The notes under the pieces: model-generated | Seen by the model: only the letters and a program-made list of their open reading frames with translations | The model's database searches: none | What the model was told of the DNA's origin: nothing | NCBI RefSeq assembly: GCF_024494685.1 | Contig: NZ_JANHDM010000002.1 | Span: 310,001-374,000 of the forward strand | DNA length: 64,000 nucleotides | From: Halorubrum rubrum | GTDB lineage: Archaea > Halobacteriota > Halobacteria > Halobacteriales > Haloferacaceae | Direction of reading: 5' to 3' | In this document: one piece after another, positions 8,802 to 56,336 of the stretch | Position numbering within the stretch: position 1 is the first letter of the stretch | Layout of the letters: the number at the start of each line of letters is the position of its first letter | Translations under genes and position numbers: made by a program

Positions 8802-8889
8802 GGGTCGGTTCGTCGCGAACACGTGACTCCGACGGATCCTATTTTCCGGCGATAGATAGTGTGAAACGACTGTCGTACCTTTATAGAAC

Positions 8890-9222
8890 AGGTGTTTCGG
8901 TGGGAAATGGGATGGATAGAAGGGGATCGTTGCTGGGGCGGTGATGACCACCAAAGCCCCAGTCGCGAGGGCGAAGTCCGACGAAGCAAGCACTGAGGGA
9001 GCGAGCACCGCGAGCGACCGAAGCGCACAGCGAGTCGCACGAGTCCTCGCGACTGCCCCTTTGAGTCCCACCCACACAGTCCCGCACCTCACACCTCCCC
9101 AGCCTCGCGGCTCGCGCTCTTCGAGCGCTCACCGCGTCCCTCGCGTTCTGCTCGCGCCCTATCGGGCGCTCGCAGGCGCGCCACCACAATCGATCGCTCG
9201 CACCTTCGCCTGTGTCGAGCGT
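8890..9222 (+). repeat. dispersed structured intergenic repeat, copy 1 (interior in orientation A)
   Basis: About 330 bp of non-coding DNA matching 28436-28790 and 56001-56336. Conserved parts in order: GGATCGTTGCTGGGGCGG; a hairpin CTGGGGC-GGTG-ATGA-CCACC-AAA-GCCCCAG; an 11-bp arm CAGTCGCGAGG (8960-8970); a 74-bp interior; the opposite arm CCTCGCGACTG (9045-9055); CCCCTTTGAGTCCCACC; and a GCGCCC-TATC-GGGCGC hairpin near 9156-9171. The interior is inverted relative to copy 2. ORFs across it are low-complexity shadows. It could be a non-autonomous mobile element or a structured RNA gene; no terminal inverted repeats or target duplication were found. Confidence 0.85.
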
Positions 9223-17472: not shown

Positions 17473-17520
17473 TCCATCGGCGACAGCCGTGATGAGTATC
17501 GGCTCATCCTCGTTCTCCAC

Positions 17521-17665
17521 CTCGCCTCTCTCCATCTCGCTTCTCTCCACCTCGCCTCTCTCCATCTCGCTTCTCTCCACCTCGCCTCTCTCCATCTCGC
17601 TTCTCTCCACCTCGCCTCTCTCCATCTCGCTTCTCTCCACCTCGCCTCTCTCCATCTCGCCTCTC
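17521..17665. repeat. 15-bp polypyrimidine tandem repeat (about 9.7 units) beside the origin
   Basis: Alternating units CTCGCCTCTCTCCAT and CTCGCTTCTCTCCAC form a 30-bp higher-order repeat present four times plus a partial fifth. The strand is about 90% pyrimidine. ORFs on both strands across it are products of the repeat (for example LHLAS repeated) and not genes. It lies immediately left of the first ORB box. Confidence 0.92.
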
Positions 17666-17671
17666 ATTCAC

Positions 17672-17701
17672 CCTCCCCCACCCCTTCGTTTCGAGTGGAA
17701 C
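17672..17701 (-). other. origin recognition box 1 (ORB)
   Basis: On the minus strand GTTCCACTCGAAACGAAGGG followed by a G-rich tail. It differs at only two positions over 21 bp from the box at 17913 and is in opposite orientation, with the G tracts pointing away from the AT-rich core. This matches the haloarchaeal ORB pattern: a dyad TTCCA..GAAA plus G-string. Confidence 0.82.
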
Positions 17702-28435: not shown

Positions 28436-28790
28436 GGGTGTTTCGGGGGAGCGTTGGATGGATAGAAGGGGATCGTTGCTGGGGTGGTGATGACCACCAA
28501 AGCCCCAGTCGCGAGGACTCGTGCGACTCGCTGTGCGCTTCGGTCGCTCGCGGTGCTCGCTCCCTCAGTGCGTGCTTCGTCGGACTTCGCCCTCGCGACT
28601 GCCCCTTTGAGTCCCACCCCGCACAGCCCCGCAACCGCGCCTCACGCCTCCCCAGCCTCGCCGCTCGCTCGGGCTCCCTCCGGTCGCCCCGGTCGCTCGC
28701 GGCGTCCCTCGCGGTCGGGTTCGCGCCCTCCGGGCGCTCACCGGCACGCCACCGTACTGCAGATCGCTCGCTCCTTCGTCTGTATTGAGC
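28436..28790 (+). repeat. dispersed structured intergenic repeat, copy 2 (interior in orientation B)
   Basis: Same architecture as the copy at 8890: GGATGGATAGAAGGGGATCG, the CTGGGGT-GGTG...CCACC-AAA-GCCCCAG hairpin, arm CAGTCGCGAGG (28506-28516), 74-bp interior, arm CCTCGCGACTG (28591-28601), CCCCTTTGAGTCCCACCCC, and a GCGCCC-TCCG-GGGCGC hairpin near 28723-28738. The flanks align in direct orientation, but the interior aligns only as the reverse complement of copy 1, with one mismatch in 74. It separates the DUF5810 and DUF5809 genes. Confidence 0.87.
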
Positions 28791-28815
28791 ATCCGCGAGC
28801 GAAGCGAGCGGTTCA

Positions 28816-28851
28816 CCGCCGGCGAGGCGACCGCCGAGCCGGCGGCTTTTT
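28816..28851 (+). terminator. GC stem with T run (terminator-like)
   Basis: CCGCCGGC (28816-28823) and GCCGGCGG (28838-28845) form a perfect 8-bp stem followed by CTTTTT. It lies downstream of repeat copy 2 and the DUF5810 gene, on the plus strand. Confidence 0.5.
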
Positions 28852-28873
28852 CCCTCCAGGTTTTTCGAGGAGC

Positions 28874-28907
28874 GGTCCCCGAAGCGAACGAAGTGAGCGA
28901 GGGGACC
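28874..28907. other. hairpin GGTCCCC/GGGGACC with purine-rich loop
   Basis: Seven-bp perfect arms around the 20-nt loop GAAGCGAACGAAGTGAGCGA. Similar GAAGCGAACGAAGTGAGCGA strings are frequent between haloarchaeal genes. It lies upstream of the DUF5809 gene. Confidence 0.5.
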
Positions 28908-28963
28908 CGACGAGAAAAAGGTGGAATCGAACGCCCTTTTCCCCTCGACGGCAACGGCCCCGT

Positions 28964-34115: not shown

Positions 34116-35312
34116 ATGGCACAAGAAGAGCGTCTGGCGGACCTGGTGTCGCGTCGCAAGATCCTCGTGACGACCGGTGCGGTCGGAGCCGCGGGCTTGG
34201 CCGGCTGTAGCGGCTCGTCGGGCGGCAGCGGGAGCGGCGACGGGGAGAGCGGTGACGACGGGAGCGGCGACGGGGGAAGCGGTGACGACGGGAGCGGAGA
34301 CGGGGGAAGCGGTGACGACGGGAGCGGGGACGGCGGCGACGGCGAGGACGAGGAGGGAAGCGCGGACGTCTCGCCCCTGACCGCGGACGGGTCCTCGACG
34401 GTGTACCCGATCACGAGCCTCGCGGGGTCGCTCTGGAACGGGAACGCCCCGGCGGACGACGAGGAGTACTGGGGTCCGGACCAGTACGGCATCGACACGG
34501 ACCAGAACATGGCCGACTACTGGGCGGGCCTCTACGGGTTCGAGCCCAGCGGCGAGGAGGGGACGCCGCCGTTCTTCACCAGTATCGGCCTCAACCACAC
34601 CGGGGTCGGGCTCGAGAAGTTAGAGCGCGGCCAGGTCGACATCGGCGACGCGTCCGCGCCCGTCAGCGCGGAGTTCCCCGACCGGAGCGAGGAGGAGCTC
34701 GAACCGTTCACGGACCACGTCGTCGCGGTCGACGCCCAGCCCATCGTCGTCAGTCGGGAGATCTACGACGCCGGCGTCACGGAGCTCACCCTCGAGGACG
34801 TCCAGGGCATCTACCAGGGGGAGATCACCAACTGGTCCGAGCTCGACGGCCCCGACCGCGAGATCAACGCCGTCGGCCGCGCCGAGGGCTCCGGGACCGA
34901 CACGTCGTTCCGCGTCAACGTCCTCGGCGACCCGGACGCGTCGATGGACGGCGTCGACGTCCGCCAGGGCCAGAACCAGCAGGTCGCGTCGACGATCGGC
35001 AACACGGACAACTCCATCGCGTACATCGCGCTGGCGTTCCTCGAACCCGACGGCGACGTGCCGCCGGTCGCGCTCACCATCGAGGGCACCACGTACGAGT
35101 ACGGTGAGAACCTCGGCACGCTCGATTACCCGCTCTCTCGCGCGCTCCACACGTACACCTGGGACGGCACCTCCGACAAGGAGGCGGCGTTCATCCGGAT
35201 GATCCTCAGCGAGTACGGACAGACGATGTTCGTCGAGCCGAACAACTACCTCCCGCTCGAGGAGGAGTTCCGCCAGGAGCAGATCGACGCGCTTCCGGAG
35301 CCGTCGGCGTAA
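34116..35312 (+). CDS. pstS: phosphate ABC transporter substrate-binding lipoprotein PstS (398 aa)
   Basis: The Tat-type signal SRRKILVTTGAVGAAG is followed by the lipobox LAGC (cleavage before the Cys near residue 29). A repetitive Gly/Ser/Asp linker encoded by a 30-bp DNA repeat (about 34223-34345) separates the lipid anchor from the binding domain. PstS signatures are ADGSSTVYPITS near 90, AEGSGTDTSFRVN and a C-terminal YGQTMFVEPNNYLPL. GTG at 34113 is immediately upstream of the ATG used. First gene of the pst operon. Confidence 0.93.
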   Translation: MAQEERLADLVSRRKILVTTGAVGAAGLAGCSGSSGGSGSGDGESGDDGSGDGGSGDDGSGDGGSGDDGSGDGGDGEDEEGSADVSPLTADGSSTVYPITSLAGSLWNGNAPADDEEYWGPDQYGIDTDQNMADYWAGLYGFEPSGEEGTPPFFTSIGLNHTGVGLEKLERGQVDIGDASAPVSAEFPDRSEEELEPFTDHVVAVDAQPIVVSREIYDAGVTELTLEDVQGIYQGEITNWSELDGPDREINAVGRAEGSGTDTSFRVNVLGDPDASMDGVDVRQGQNQQVASTIGNTDNSIAYIALAFLEPDGDVPPVALTIEGTTYEYGENLGTLDYPLSRALHTYTWDGTSDKEAAFIRMILSEYGQTMFVEPNNYLPLEEEFRQEQIDALPEPSA

Positions 35313-49948: not shown

Positions 49949-49981
49949 TCGTTTCTCGAGGCGACGCGGCGTCGGCGTCGA

Positions 49982-52210
49982 TCACCGCGCGTCCGGGTCG
50001 TCGTTCTCGTCGTCGTCGGGGTCGTCGTTCTCGTCGTCGTCGGGGTCGTCGTTCTCGTCGTCGTCGGGGTCGTCGTTCTCGTCGTCGTCGGGGTCGTCGT
50101 TCTCGTCGTCGTCGGGGTCGTCGTGATCCGTTATCACCGCCGGCTCGGGCGGGCGGCCGTCCTCCCCGTCGTCCTCGTCGGCCGCGTCGTGGTCGGTGAT
50201 GACCGCCGGCTCCGGCGGCTCGTCGTCCTCCCCCCCGCCGGCCACCCCATCCGGGCCGTCGGCCGCCTCGTCGGGAACGGCGGCGGCGTCGGATTCGTCC
50301 TCCCCCCTTCTTCGGACGTCCGTCCCGCTCGACTCCTCCGGGTCGCGCTCGACGCTCCCGTTCGGCGGCCCGGCCTCCCGCCGCCCCGAGCCGAACAGTC
50401 GATCGCGGAACGAGCGACGGCTCGGGCGTTCCGCGAGCAGCACCGAGCAGTCCACGTCGTGGATCACGTCGAGGTGGAGCGAGTTGGAGACGAGCCGCGA
50501 GAGCAGCCCCTTCTCCGTCGCGCCGATGACGACGAGCGTGTGGTCTTTCGCCTCCCGGACGATCGCGGCCTCGACGTCGCCGCCGTCGTCGACGACCCGG
50601 TCGGCGTCGTCCACGTCGTTCTCCTCGGCCCACGCCGCGAGGAAGCTCTCGCCCCGCTCGCGGTCCGCCGGACCGTCGACGACGTGTAACAGCGTCACCT
50701 CGGAGCCGGCGGTTCGCGAGAGCATGCTCGCCACCTCCGCGCCCAGCCGGGAGTCGGGACCGCCGGAGGTGGGTAACAGGACCCGCGAGGTGTCCAGGTC
50801 GGCCTCGTTCAGGATGAGGAAGTCACACGGGAGCTGGTTGGTGAGTTCGTCGATCGGCCGCTCGGCGCGGGCGGCGTTCCACAGCTGGTCCTCGCCCCAC
50901 CCCATCACCACCGCCTCCGGGCGGGTCCGCCGGGCCATGTTGAACACCTCCTCGAAGGAGCGGTGGGTGACGACCGTCGACGTGGAGACGTCGACGTCGT
51001 ACCCCTCCGCGGTCTCGCGTAACCCCGCCATCCCCTCCTCGGAGACGTCGGCGATCCGGCCCGCCCCTGCCGACAGCGACATGCGCTCGGGTGCCTGGAC
51101 GACGTGGACGATGTGGACGATCCCGTCCTCGTGGTCGCTCGCGATCCGGCTCGCGAGCTCGACTATCGGCCCGTCCGTTCGCGGGTTCGAGATCGGGACC
51201 ATGATCCGGTGGCCCTCGCTCGCGAACAGCGTCGCCTCCGTGGCGTCGAGGATGGGGACGTACGACCGTCCCGCGGCCCGGCCGAGCAGCCACTCCGGCA
51301 CGGTGAGACGACGGTTCATCCCCTCGAAACGAGCCTCCTCGAGCCGCTCCTCGCTGGTCTGGAAGTAGTTCACCAGCGTGACGAGCACCACGCCCCCGAT
51401 CGTGTTGCCGAGGAGCACCGGGAGCACGAACCCGAACAGCCCGTCGTACAGGGTTGTCCCGCCGCCGTAGAGCCCTATCGAGCCGACGAAGAGCAGATAC
51501 AACACCTCGGTGAAGGAGACGACGACGTGGTAGAGATTTCCGAGCGGGATCGCGAGGAACGCGAGGTAGACGACGAGCAGCCGGGTGACGGAGTTCGTGG
51601 AGGCGAACCCGACCCAGACCACGCCGGCGACGATCAGTCCCGCCACGGCGGCTTTGAAGAAGAGCGGCCAGAAGCCGACGTCGAACCCGCTACTGGAGAC
51701 GTAGAGGGCCGCGTCGACGCTGTCGCCGGAGAAGACGCCGCCGTACGAGAGAACGAGCGCGCCGACCGCGCCGCCGGTGAAGTTGCCCGCGAGCACGGTC
51801 CCCCAGTGGCGAAGCAGCGTCGGGACGCTGGCGAGCCGCTCGAGCGTCAGCGCCACCGGCGGCAGCGTGTTCTCCGTGTACAGCTGGTAGCCGCCGATGA
51901 TGATGTAGATGAACCCCAGCGGGTACAACGCGACGCTCAGGATCGGATGGCCGTCGGTCGCGGCGGTCAGCGAGACGTACAACAGGAAGGTGATCGTGAT
52001 CGCCAACCCGGCGGCGACGCCGCTGAAGAACAGCTCGCGTCGCCCCGAGGTCACCTCCTCGTCGGCCGCGGCGACGATCCGCTGGAACACCTCGTCCGAG
52101 GAGAACCGGTCCCGAACCGCCTCGCCGACGGCGGGTGCGCCGCTGCGCGACCGCTCGACCACCTCCCGCATCGAATCGTCGTCCGAACCCGTGGGGTCTG
52201 TCACTGCCAT
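49982..52210 (-). CDS. formate/nitrite-transporter-like membrane protein fused to two Usp domains (742 aa)
   Basis: The N-terminal half (about 60-325) has six TM helices with FNT-type segments (GVAAGLAITITFLLYVSL, NFTGGAVGALVLSYGG, LLGNTIGGVVLVTLVNYF). Two universal-stress-protein domains follow (about 360-500 and 505-640, the latter with LVVIGATEKGLLSRLVSNSL). The last 100 residues are acidic, ending in five DDDENDDP units from a 24-bp DNA repeat. The channel substrate may be formate, nitrite or another small anion; the Usp domains may gate it through nucleotides. ATG 52210 lies about 20 bp after a CTTTTTATACG box. Confidence 0.82.
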   Translation of the reverse strand: MAVTDPTGSDDDSMREVVERSRSGAPAVGEAVRDRFSSDEVFQRIVAAADEEVTSGRRELFFSGVAAGLAITITFLLYVSLTAATDGHPILSVALYPLGFIYIIIGGYQLYTENTLPPVALTLERLASVPTLLRHWGTVLAGNFTGGAVGALVLSYGGVFSGDSVDAALYVSSSGFDVGFWPLFFKAAVAGLIVAGVVWVGFASTNSVTRLLVVYLAFLAIPLGNLYHVVVSFTEVLYLLFVGSIGLYGGGTTLYDGLFGFVLPVLLGNTIGGVVLVTLVNYFQTSEERLEEARFEGMNRRLTVPEWLLGRAAGRSYVPILDATEATLFASEGHRIMVPISNPRTDGPIVELASRIASDHEDGIVHIVHVVQAPERMSLSAGAGRIADVSEEGMAGLRETAEGYDVDVSTSTVVTHRSFEEVFNMARRTRPEAVVMGWGEDQLWNAARAERPIDELTNQLPCDFLILNEADLDTSRVLLPTSGGPDSRLGAEVASMLSRTAGSEVTLLHVVDGPADRERGESFLAAWAEENDVDDADRVVDDGGDVEAAIVREAKDHTLVVIGATEKGLLSRLVSNSLHLDVIHDVDCSVLLAERPSRRSFRDRLFGSGRREAGPPNGSVERDPEESSGTDVRRRGEDESDAAAVPDEAADGPDGVAGGGEDDEPPEPAVITDHDAADEDDGEDGRPPEPAVITDHDDPDDDENDDPDDDENDDPDDDENDDPDDDENDDPDDDENDDPDAR
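49995..50114. repeat. 24-bp in-frame tandem repeat, five units
   Basis: Five exact units beginning GGGTCGTCGTTCTCGTCG, encoding the repeated acidic octapeptide DDDENDDP at the C-terminus of the FNT-Usp protein. The period is a multiple of three, so copy-number change would not disrupt the frame. Confidence 0.92.
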
Positions 52211-56000: not shown

Positions 56001-56336
56001 CGGATCGTTGCTGGCGCGGTGAACATGTCCAAAGCCCCAGCCGCGAGGACTCGGGGGCCTCGTTGCGCTCCTCGTCACTCGCGTTGCTCGCTCCTGCGGT
56101 GCTTACTTCGGCCACCGTCGCCCTCGCAGCTGCCCCTTTGAATCCCTCCCGGCCCGCACAGCACCGCACCTCACGCCTCCCCAGCCTCGCTGCTCACTGC
56201 TCGCGGTTTCACCGCTCGCTGCCGAGGTGCTCACTTCGTTCGCACCTCGCACCGTTCGCAGCGTCCCTCGCGGTCTGCTCGCGCCCTCTTGGGCGCTCGC
56301 AGGCGCGCCACCACAACTCGGTCATTGACTCGCTAT
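56001..56336 (+). repeat. dispersed structured intergenic repeat, copy 3 (divergent, interior orientation B)
   Basis: Shares with copies 1 and 2 GGATCGTTGCTGG, AAAGCCCCAG, arms CAGCCGCGAGG (56038-56048) and CCTCGCAGCTG (56122-56132; the T-to-C change in one arm is matched by an A-to-G pairing change opposite, shifted by one base), a 73-bp interior, CCCCTTTGAATCCC, CCTCACGCCTCCCCAGCCTC, and the hairpin GCGCCC-TCTT-GGGCGC (about 56282-56297). Less similar than copies 1 and 2 are to each other. It starts about 35 bp after the AT-rich segment ends. Confidence 0.82.

Follow-up and report, generated by a model that had tools for sequence, protein, structure and literature searches.

Segments inverted between short arms have been described in chloroplast genomes, where these hairpin-associated minute inversions, reviewed in PMC12371153 (with reference to Kelchner & Wendel 1996 and Catalano et al. 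2009), recurrently turn round the loop of a stem-loop, and no recombinase is invoked. Multicopy, transposase-free and palindrome-rich elements, among them PATE, SMR-A and the 'SwitchRepeats', are known from Haloquadratum walsbyi (PMC3119063). The SMR-A units measure ~110 bp, have inverted ends, lack a target duplication and were inserted into palindromes of other elements, and one position in this species may hold an element in forward orientation, the same element reversed, or another repeat (PMC3119063). Gene conversion and polyploidy are likewise reported for haloarchaea (PMC4056108). Here we analyse a stretch of 64,000 nt (the window) within contig C18 of a 3.2-Mb Halorubrum genome, which carries three copies of a dispersed repeat, one of them with its interior reversed. 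We think it probable that these copies represent a haloarchaea-wide family of structured repeats whose hairpins are exchanged as cassettes, and that the interior is occasionally inverted via its arms without acting as a switch.

Copy 1 opens with the left part of the long form of the element (TAGAACAGGTGTTTCGG...GGATCGTTGCTGGGGCGGTGATGACCAC, positions 8884-8951, plus strand), which could be aligned with 90 other left ends. Hairpin H1 follows. Its left arm (CAAAG-CCC-CAGTCGCGAGG, 8952-8970) and right arm (CCTCGCGACTG-CCC-CTTTG, 9045-9063) are inverted repeats of one another and are recognised by a covariance model, in which the left arm enters helices 1 and 2; the 11 bp next to the interior, CAGTCGCGAGG and CCTCGCGACTG, lie at 8960-8970 and 9045-9055. 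The interior between them (8971-9044, plus strand) is in orientation A, the reverse of the usual one in the family. Further right are a linker with minus-strand G runs and conserved alignment columns (9064-9105), hairpin H2 (CGCGGC-TC-...-TC-ACCGCG, 9106-9136) and hairpin H3 (CTGC-TC-GCGCCC TATC GGGCGC-TC-GCAG, 9145-9176), all read on the minus strand and the two hairpins defined by covariation, and finally the right end of the long form, TTCGCCTGTGTCGA (9205-9218, plus strand), identified by comparison of long-form ends. In copy 2, H1 occupies 28498-28609 on the minus strand, with identical arms at 28506-28516 and 28591-28601 and an interior in orientation B (28517-28590); an enlarged H2 (28659-28704) and H3 (28713-28744) were read from the sequence of the same strand, and the right end, TTCGTCTGTATTGA, from comparison of long-form ends (28775-28788, plus strand). 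Copy 3, also on the minus strand, comprises H1 (56030-56140), an H2 with an inserted sub-hairpin (56188-56263) and H3 (56272-56303), the latter two again read from the sequence. Its interior (56049-56121) is in orientation B, as had been proposed.

A repeat search of the window returned 8952-9063 and 28498-28609 as an inverted pair of 112 nt with 94% complementarity. Within it, 8971-9044 and 28517-28590 match only as reverse complements, at 73 of 74 positions with a single mismatch, in agreement with the first-pass annotation. That annotation had also described both flanks as highly identical. Instead, the interior is the most similar part, while the left flank is 91% identical over 87 nt and the element as a whole ~72%; the interior thus has a history apart from that of its flanks, through movement or homogenisation of its own. 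Under a covariance model built from other family copies, copies 2 and 3 both score 138 bits on the minus strand (138.5 and 138.4, respectively). For copy 1, the arms and interior reach 94 bits on the plus strand (93.7) and only 54 on the minus strand, although its flanks match the model on the minus strand, opposite to the interior. This conflict of strands indicates that the inversion lies in the sequence itself and is no artefact of one alignment. The anchor motif CTGCCCCTTTGARTCCC occurs 3 times in the window compared to an expectation of 0.10, and a chance origin of the window copies is excluded.

Other repeats were seen in the same stretch. Short tandem arrays with periods of 15, 15 and 24 bp lie at 17484-17695, 34199-34363 and 49966-50148, respectively, and a second dispersed repeat (CTGTATTGAGCATCCGCGAGCGAAGCGAGCGG ... 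TTTTTCCCTCCAGGTTTTTCGAGGAG ... GAGAAAAAGGTGG, 28780-28925) adjoins copy 2 on its right. Relatives carry copies of the latter that are up to 92-96% identical at many loci, and the runs of T-rich sequence in it point to a terminator-like element.

A DNA search of this genome recovered 93 matching pieces of the family, and the anchor marks ~64 loci. Among Halorubrum genomes the anchor is present in 48 of 52, with anything from a handful to 189 copies, while the control was near zero. Beyond the genus, an exact match to the minus-strand start, GGGACTSAAAGGGGC, was found in 109 of 195 Halobacteriales genomes and 36 of 66 genera, compared with 1 of 164 genomes of the same phylum outside this order. 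Members from Haloarcula and Halorussus keep the order of the parts with quite different arms, and in other genera a second, unrelated type of interior also occurs between the arms. Four genomes (G190, G053, G117 and G076) display the core motif as head-to-head pairs ~42-50 bp apart, in the manner of REPINs. Plasmid records gave three weak matches, all of them family members (Haloarcula, Halorussus and Halorubrum), and phage records gave none. The Rfam covariance models produced no match at the gathering score or at E<=1, and no description of the consensus or of such Halorubrum repeats was found in searchable papers, although absence there is no proof of novelty.

The copies share a common anatomy. 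On the folding (minus) strand the order is GGGACT(C/G)AAAGGGGC, arm, interior, second arm, GGGGCTTT, and in Halorubrum H3 and H2 precede H1. H1 is closed at its outer end by CAAAG/CTTTG. Next come an internal loop of CCC/CCC, which reads GGG/GGG on the minus strand, then the arms, 11-23 bp long, and finally short helices between TC/TC loops, which correspond to tandem G-A when the minus strand is read. In H2 and H3 alike, a TC/TC loop separates the stem from an inner stem, which is capped by a loop. The sequence of the arms varies freely while their pairing is kept (CCGGCTCC, CCGGGAGG, CACCGCCGAGG and others). Compensatory changes were observed at 31 of 49 consensus pairs in 40 copies, and an alignment of H1 that included two other genera showed double changes at 22 of 34 pairs with 97.7% of cells paired, a value reached by 0 of 500 shuffles (slid controls gave 29-43%). 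As the family copies are related, these counts do not represent independent events. The GCGCCC-N4-GGGCGC hairpin of the earlier annotation is real and corresponds to H3, with covariation, and the selection on structure suggested there is supported by the covariation of the hairpin pairs; its CTGGGGC hairpin, by contrast, is not conserved across the family, most copies having CTGGCGC.

The structure is also specific to one strand. In 40 of 40 copies the minus strand gave the better fold, and for copy 2 the folding z was -2.5 on the minus strand versus -0.5 on the plus strand. Departures from Watson-Crick pairing in the stems of H1 and H2, read on the plus strand, were more often A-C (45) than G-T (20), as expected if it is the minus strand that folds. 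The copies display covarying helices in which G-U is tolerated on one strand, as a structured RNA should. On these sequence features the element probably acts as a structured RNA or as single-stranded DNA, and the strand asymmetry makes the former somewhat more likely, by a small margin, than a purely DNA-level hairpin. Stable DNA hairpins could give the same covariation as RNA, so that the covariation does not prove an RNA function. We found no conserved promoter, AT-rich left ends being confined to some of the long copies. Intervals between convergent genes hold three times as many copies as those between divergent genes (42 versus 14), and tandem contexts, assigned with crude GC3-based gene calls, were split 26 versus 20 with no clear strand bias relative to the neighbours; the convergent excess together with the lack of a clear strand preference makes a fixed role in 3'-UTRs unlikely.

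We measured orientation in four Halorubrum genomes (G000, G018, G009 and G031), sampled without an orientation-specific query, and obtained 153 B copies compared to 5 A copies (97% B). Judged from the sequences, B is the standard state, and A is a rare, derived and recurrent one. The genome of the window has three A copies (L001, which is copy 1, L015 and L067), each of which is nearest to a different B lineage, and hence at least three inversions have probably taken place. A further six A copies come from six other Halorubrum species; as the query that recovered them was A-oriented, they cannot serve to estimate frequency. One more (L372) is in another genus. The covariance model preferred the strand opposite to the flanks in 8 of 8 tested A copies and in L372, and the interiors of A copies align poorly with those of B copies in the direct sense. 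Two loci of one genome (L305 and L309 in G009) hold near-identical A-oriented cassettes with inserted hairpins; here an inverted cassette seems to have been copied onward.

The state of the arms sets the A copies apart. Perfect arms of at least 11 bp were present in 8 of 8 well-armed A copies compared to 100 of 177 B copies (56%; Fisher p=0.02), and arm length also differed between the two classes (Mann-Whitney p=0.002), in a test that comprised only eight A copies, five of them found via the A-oriented query. With perfect arms in all well-armed A copies, it is likely that inversion proceeds through the arms. When the interior was turned round in silico, the fold of the minus strand became weaker in 111 of 119 B copies; in 8 of 8 A copies it would become stronger. 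An inverted loop, perfect arms and recurrence, as looked for in hairpin-mediated micro-inversion, are thus all found in these copies, and taken together these comparisons point to an arm-mediated inversion that is rare, derived and probably disfavoured. The recent inversion between the arms that the first reading had put forward stands to this extent: it is recurrent, involves several lineages and perfect arms, and in copy 1 has left an interior 100% identical to the reverse complement of that of a paralog, L006 (74/74). It is not the whole story, as cassettes are also replaced or exchanged.

Evidence for such exchange came from orthologous loci. Compared with the nearest species (G018), both flanks were orthologous and mostly 89-96% identical, with similarity declining from the outer flanks inward to the core. 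Across 15-18 pairs, the similarity of H1 was 0.59 for orthologs versus 0.58 for random loci, and that of H2 was 0.53 versus 0.54. H3 retained a weak ortholog signal (0.71 versus 0.64 in the same pairs), as did the inner left part (0.62 versus 0.53). Near matches of the H1 and H2 cassettes were found at other loci in either genome (0.82-0.93), and within the genome the similarities of H1, H2 and H3 were uncorrelated (-0.09 to 0.05). No two of the window species, G018, H. cibi and H. halodurans share an H1 cassette at the aspartokinase locus. Different cassettes at one locus in related species imply that cassettes are replaced or exchanged between loci, with inversion a by-product in ~3% of copies. 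Homologous exchange between copies would be the simplest account of this pattern, while some loci could owe an apparent replacement of cassettes to repeated, independent insertion into one site. Inversion in place was rejected as the sole account, related species holding other cassettes at the three A loci.

How copy 1 came by its reversed interior can be read in other ways. The cassette may have been copied backwards from another locus, by ectopic conversion primed on the inverted arms, and not flipped where it stands. Its interior is that of L006 reversed, although H2, H3 and the flanks differ between the two loci, and three related species carry other cassettes at the copy 1 locus, as this reading would have it. 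Forward conversion followed by inversion in place leads, however, to the same end state when one genome per species is compared, and on balance we doubt backward copying while regarding it as a real contender. Considerably less credible is that a site-specific recombinase inverts the 74-bp interior as a phase-variable switch; a recombinase acting on the arms had been raised in the first-pass annotation. The boundaries are clean, the arms of all well-armed A copies are perfect and the interior of copy 1 differs from the reversed L006 by zero substitutions, all of which speak for a recombinase. A switch should nonetheless show both orientations commonly across loci, which the orientation count contradicts, and a recombinase should act at a conserved site, whereas the arms vary with compensation; moreover, the interior contains no recognised promoter or gene, and no recombinase was recognised among the ORFs adjoining the window copies. 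We accordingly judge a switch to be very improbable. That the interiors are unrelated, or merely similar, quasi-palindromes can be practically dismissed: GCGAGC-type repeats do occur within the interior, but a reverse-complement identity of 73/74, and of 74/74 for L006, together with the poor direct alignment of A with B interiors and the clear assignment of strand by the covariance model, refutes it.

The remaining alternative concerns the element as a whole, which might be a non-autonomous transposon of the MITE, PATE, REPIN or SMR type, its hairpins being recognition structures for a transposase and the flip a by-product of transposition. The copies are dispersed and intergenic, favouring convergent over divergent gene pairs, their presence or absence differs between species, the long copies have common ends that match weakly in inverted orientation (AGTACGGGTG / AGTACAGGCG), and the Haloquadratum PATE/SMR elements and 'SwitchRepeats' class provide precedents (PMC3119063). 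On the other hand, no target duplication was seen, and the long ends are almost absent from the genome with 189 copies (G065). The one transposase family tested, Y1 (PF01797), is absent from G018, which has ~100 copies, and present in G067 and G075, which have 0; as its presence does not track copy number, Y1 transposase was rejected as the mobiliser. We regard a transposon of this kind as rather unlikely but not far-fetched.

We favour instead a family of dispersed, highly structured intergenic repeats of which the minus strand would fold. Conserved motifs around each hairpin may allow ectopic homologous recombination to copy hairpins from locus to locus, the agent being probably gene conversion in polyploid archaea. 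Because the arms of H1 are inverted repeats, its interior would occasionally be reversed, strand exchange or template switching between the two arms leaving it backwards, presumably with no dedicated recombinase. The backward form has a lower predicted fold stability and stays rare, and we infer from this that copy 1 is a very recent and probably neutral or mildly deleterious inversion, not a switch. More tentatively, and with our doubts slightly outweighing our belief, the family may be an undescribed, order-wide one of structured RNA or single-stranded DNA whose hairpins reassort freely among tens of loci, independently of neighbours <100 bp away and sometimes reversed, such that structure would pass from locus to locus by exchange instead of descending with the locus.

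The flipped segment would then preserve a record of how hairpins are exchanged and inverted in nature and, if hairpins truly reassort, ectopic conversion and hairpin inversion in archaea could be measured straight from genomes. The family, which Rfam lacks, is also a candidate for a large group of haloarchaeal non-coding RNAs or DNA hairpins, and it cautions against taking every interior inverted between repeats for a genetic switch.

Of the systems described above, the PATE, SMR and 'SwitchRepeats' elements of Haloquadratum are similar in genomic habit (PMC3119063), and SMR-A is resembled by H1 in being an element of similar length (112 bp) with inverted ends, a likeness drawn by description and not by sequence. 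An unrelated segment of ~500 bp with the same CTGTACTGA right end was seen in place of the repeat at L274 and L280 (copy 2 locus, G018) and at L291 and L292 (aspartokinase locus, G025), which is like the deletion-coupled insertions of Haloquadratum. Unlike PATE and SMR-A, the copies here are not tracked by Y1 transposase and share a covarying structure across the order, which in Halorubrum comprises three hairpins. REP, BIME and REPIN sequences with their RAYT transposases (PMC2817692, PMC3116915) are likewise high-copy extragenic palindromes, and the head-to-head motif pairs in some genera recall them; in contrast to REP and REPIN sequences, the units here are much longer and multi-hairpin, and G018 has no Y1/RAYT match. 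The inversion itself resembles in its working the minute inversions of chloroplasts (PMC12371153), but those typically span 4-50 bp at single loci, whereas here a 74-bp interior is inverted within a many-copy family of constrained fold.
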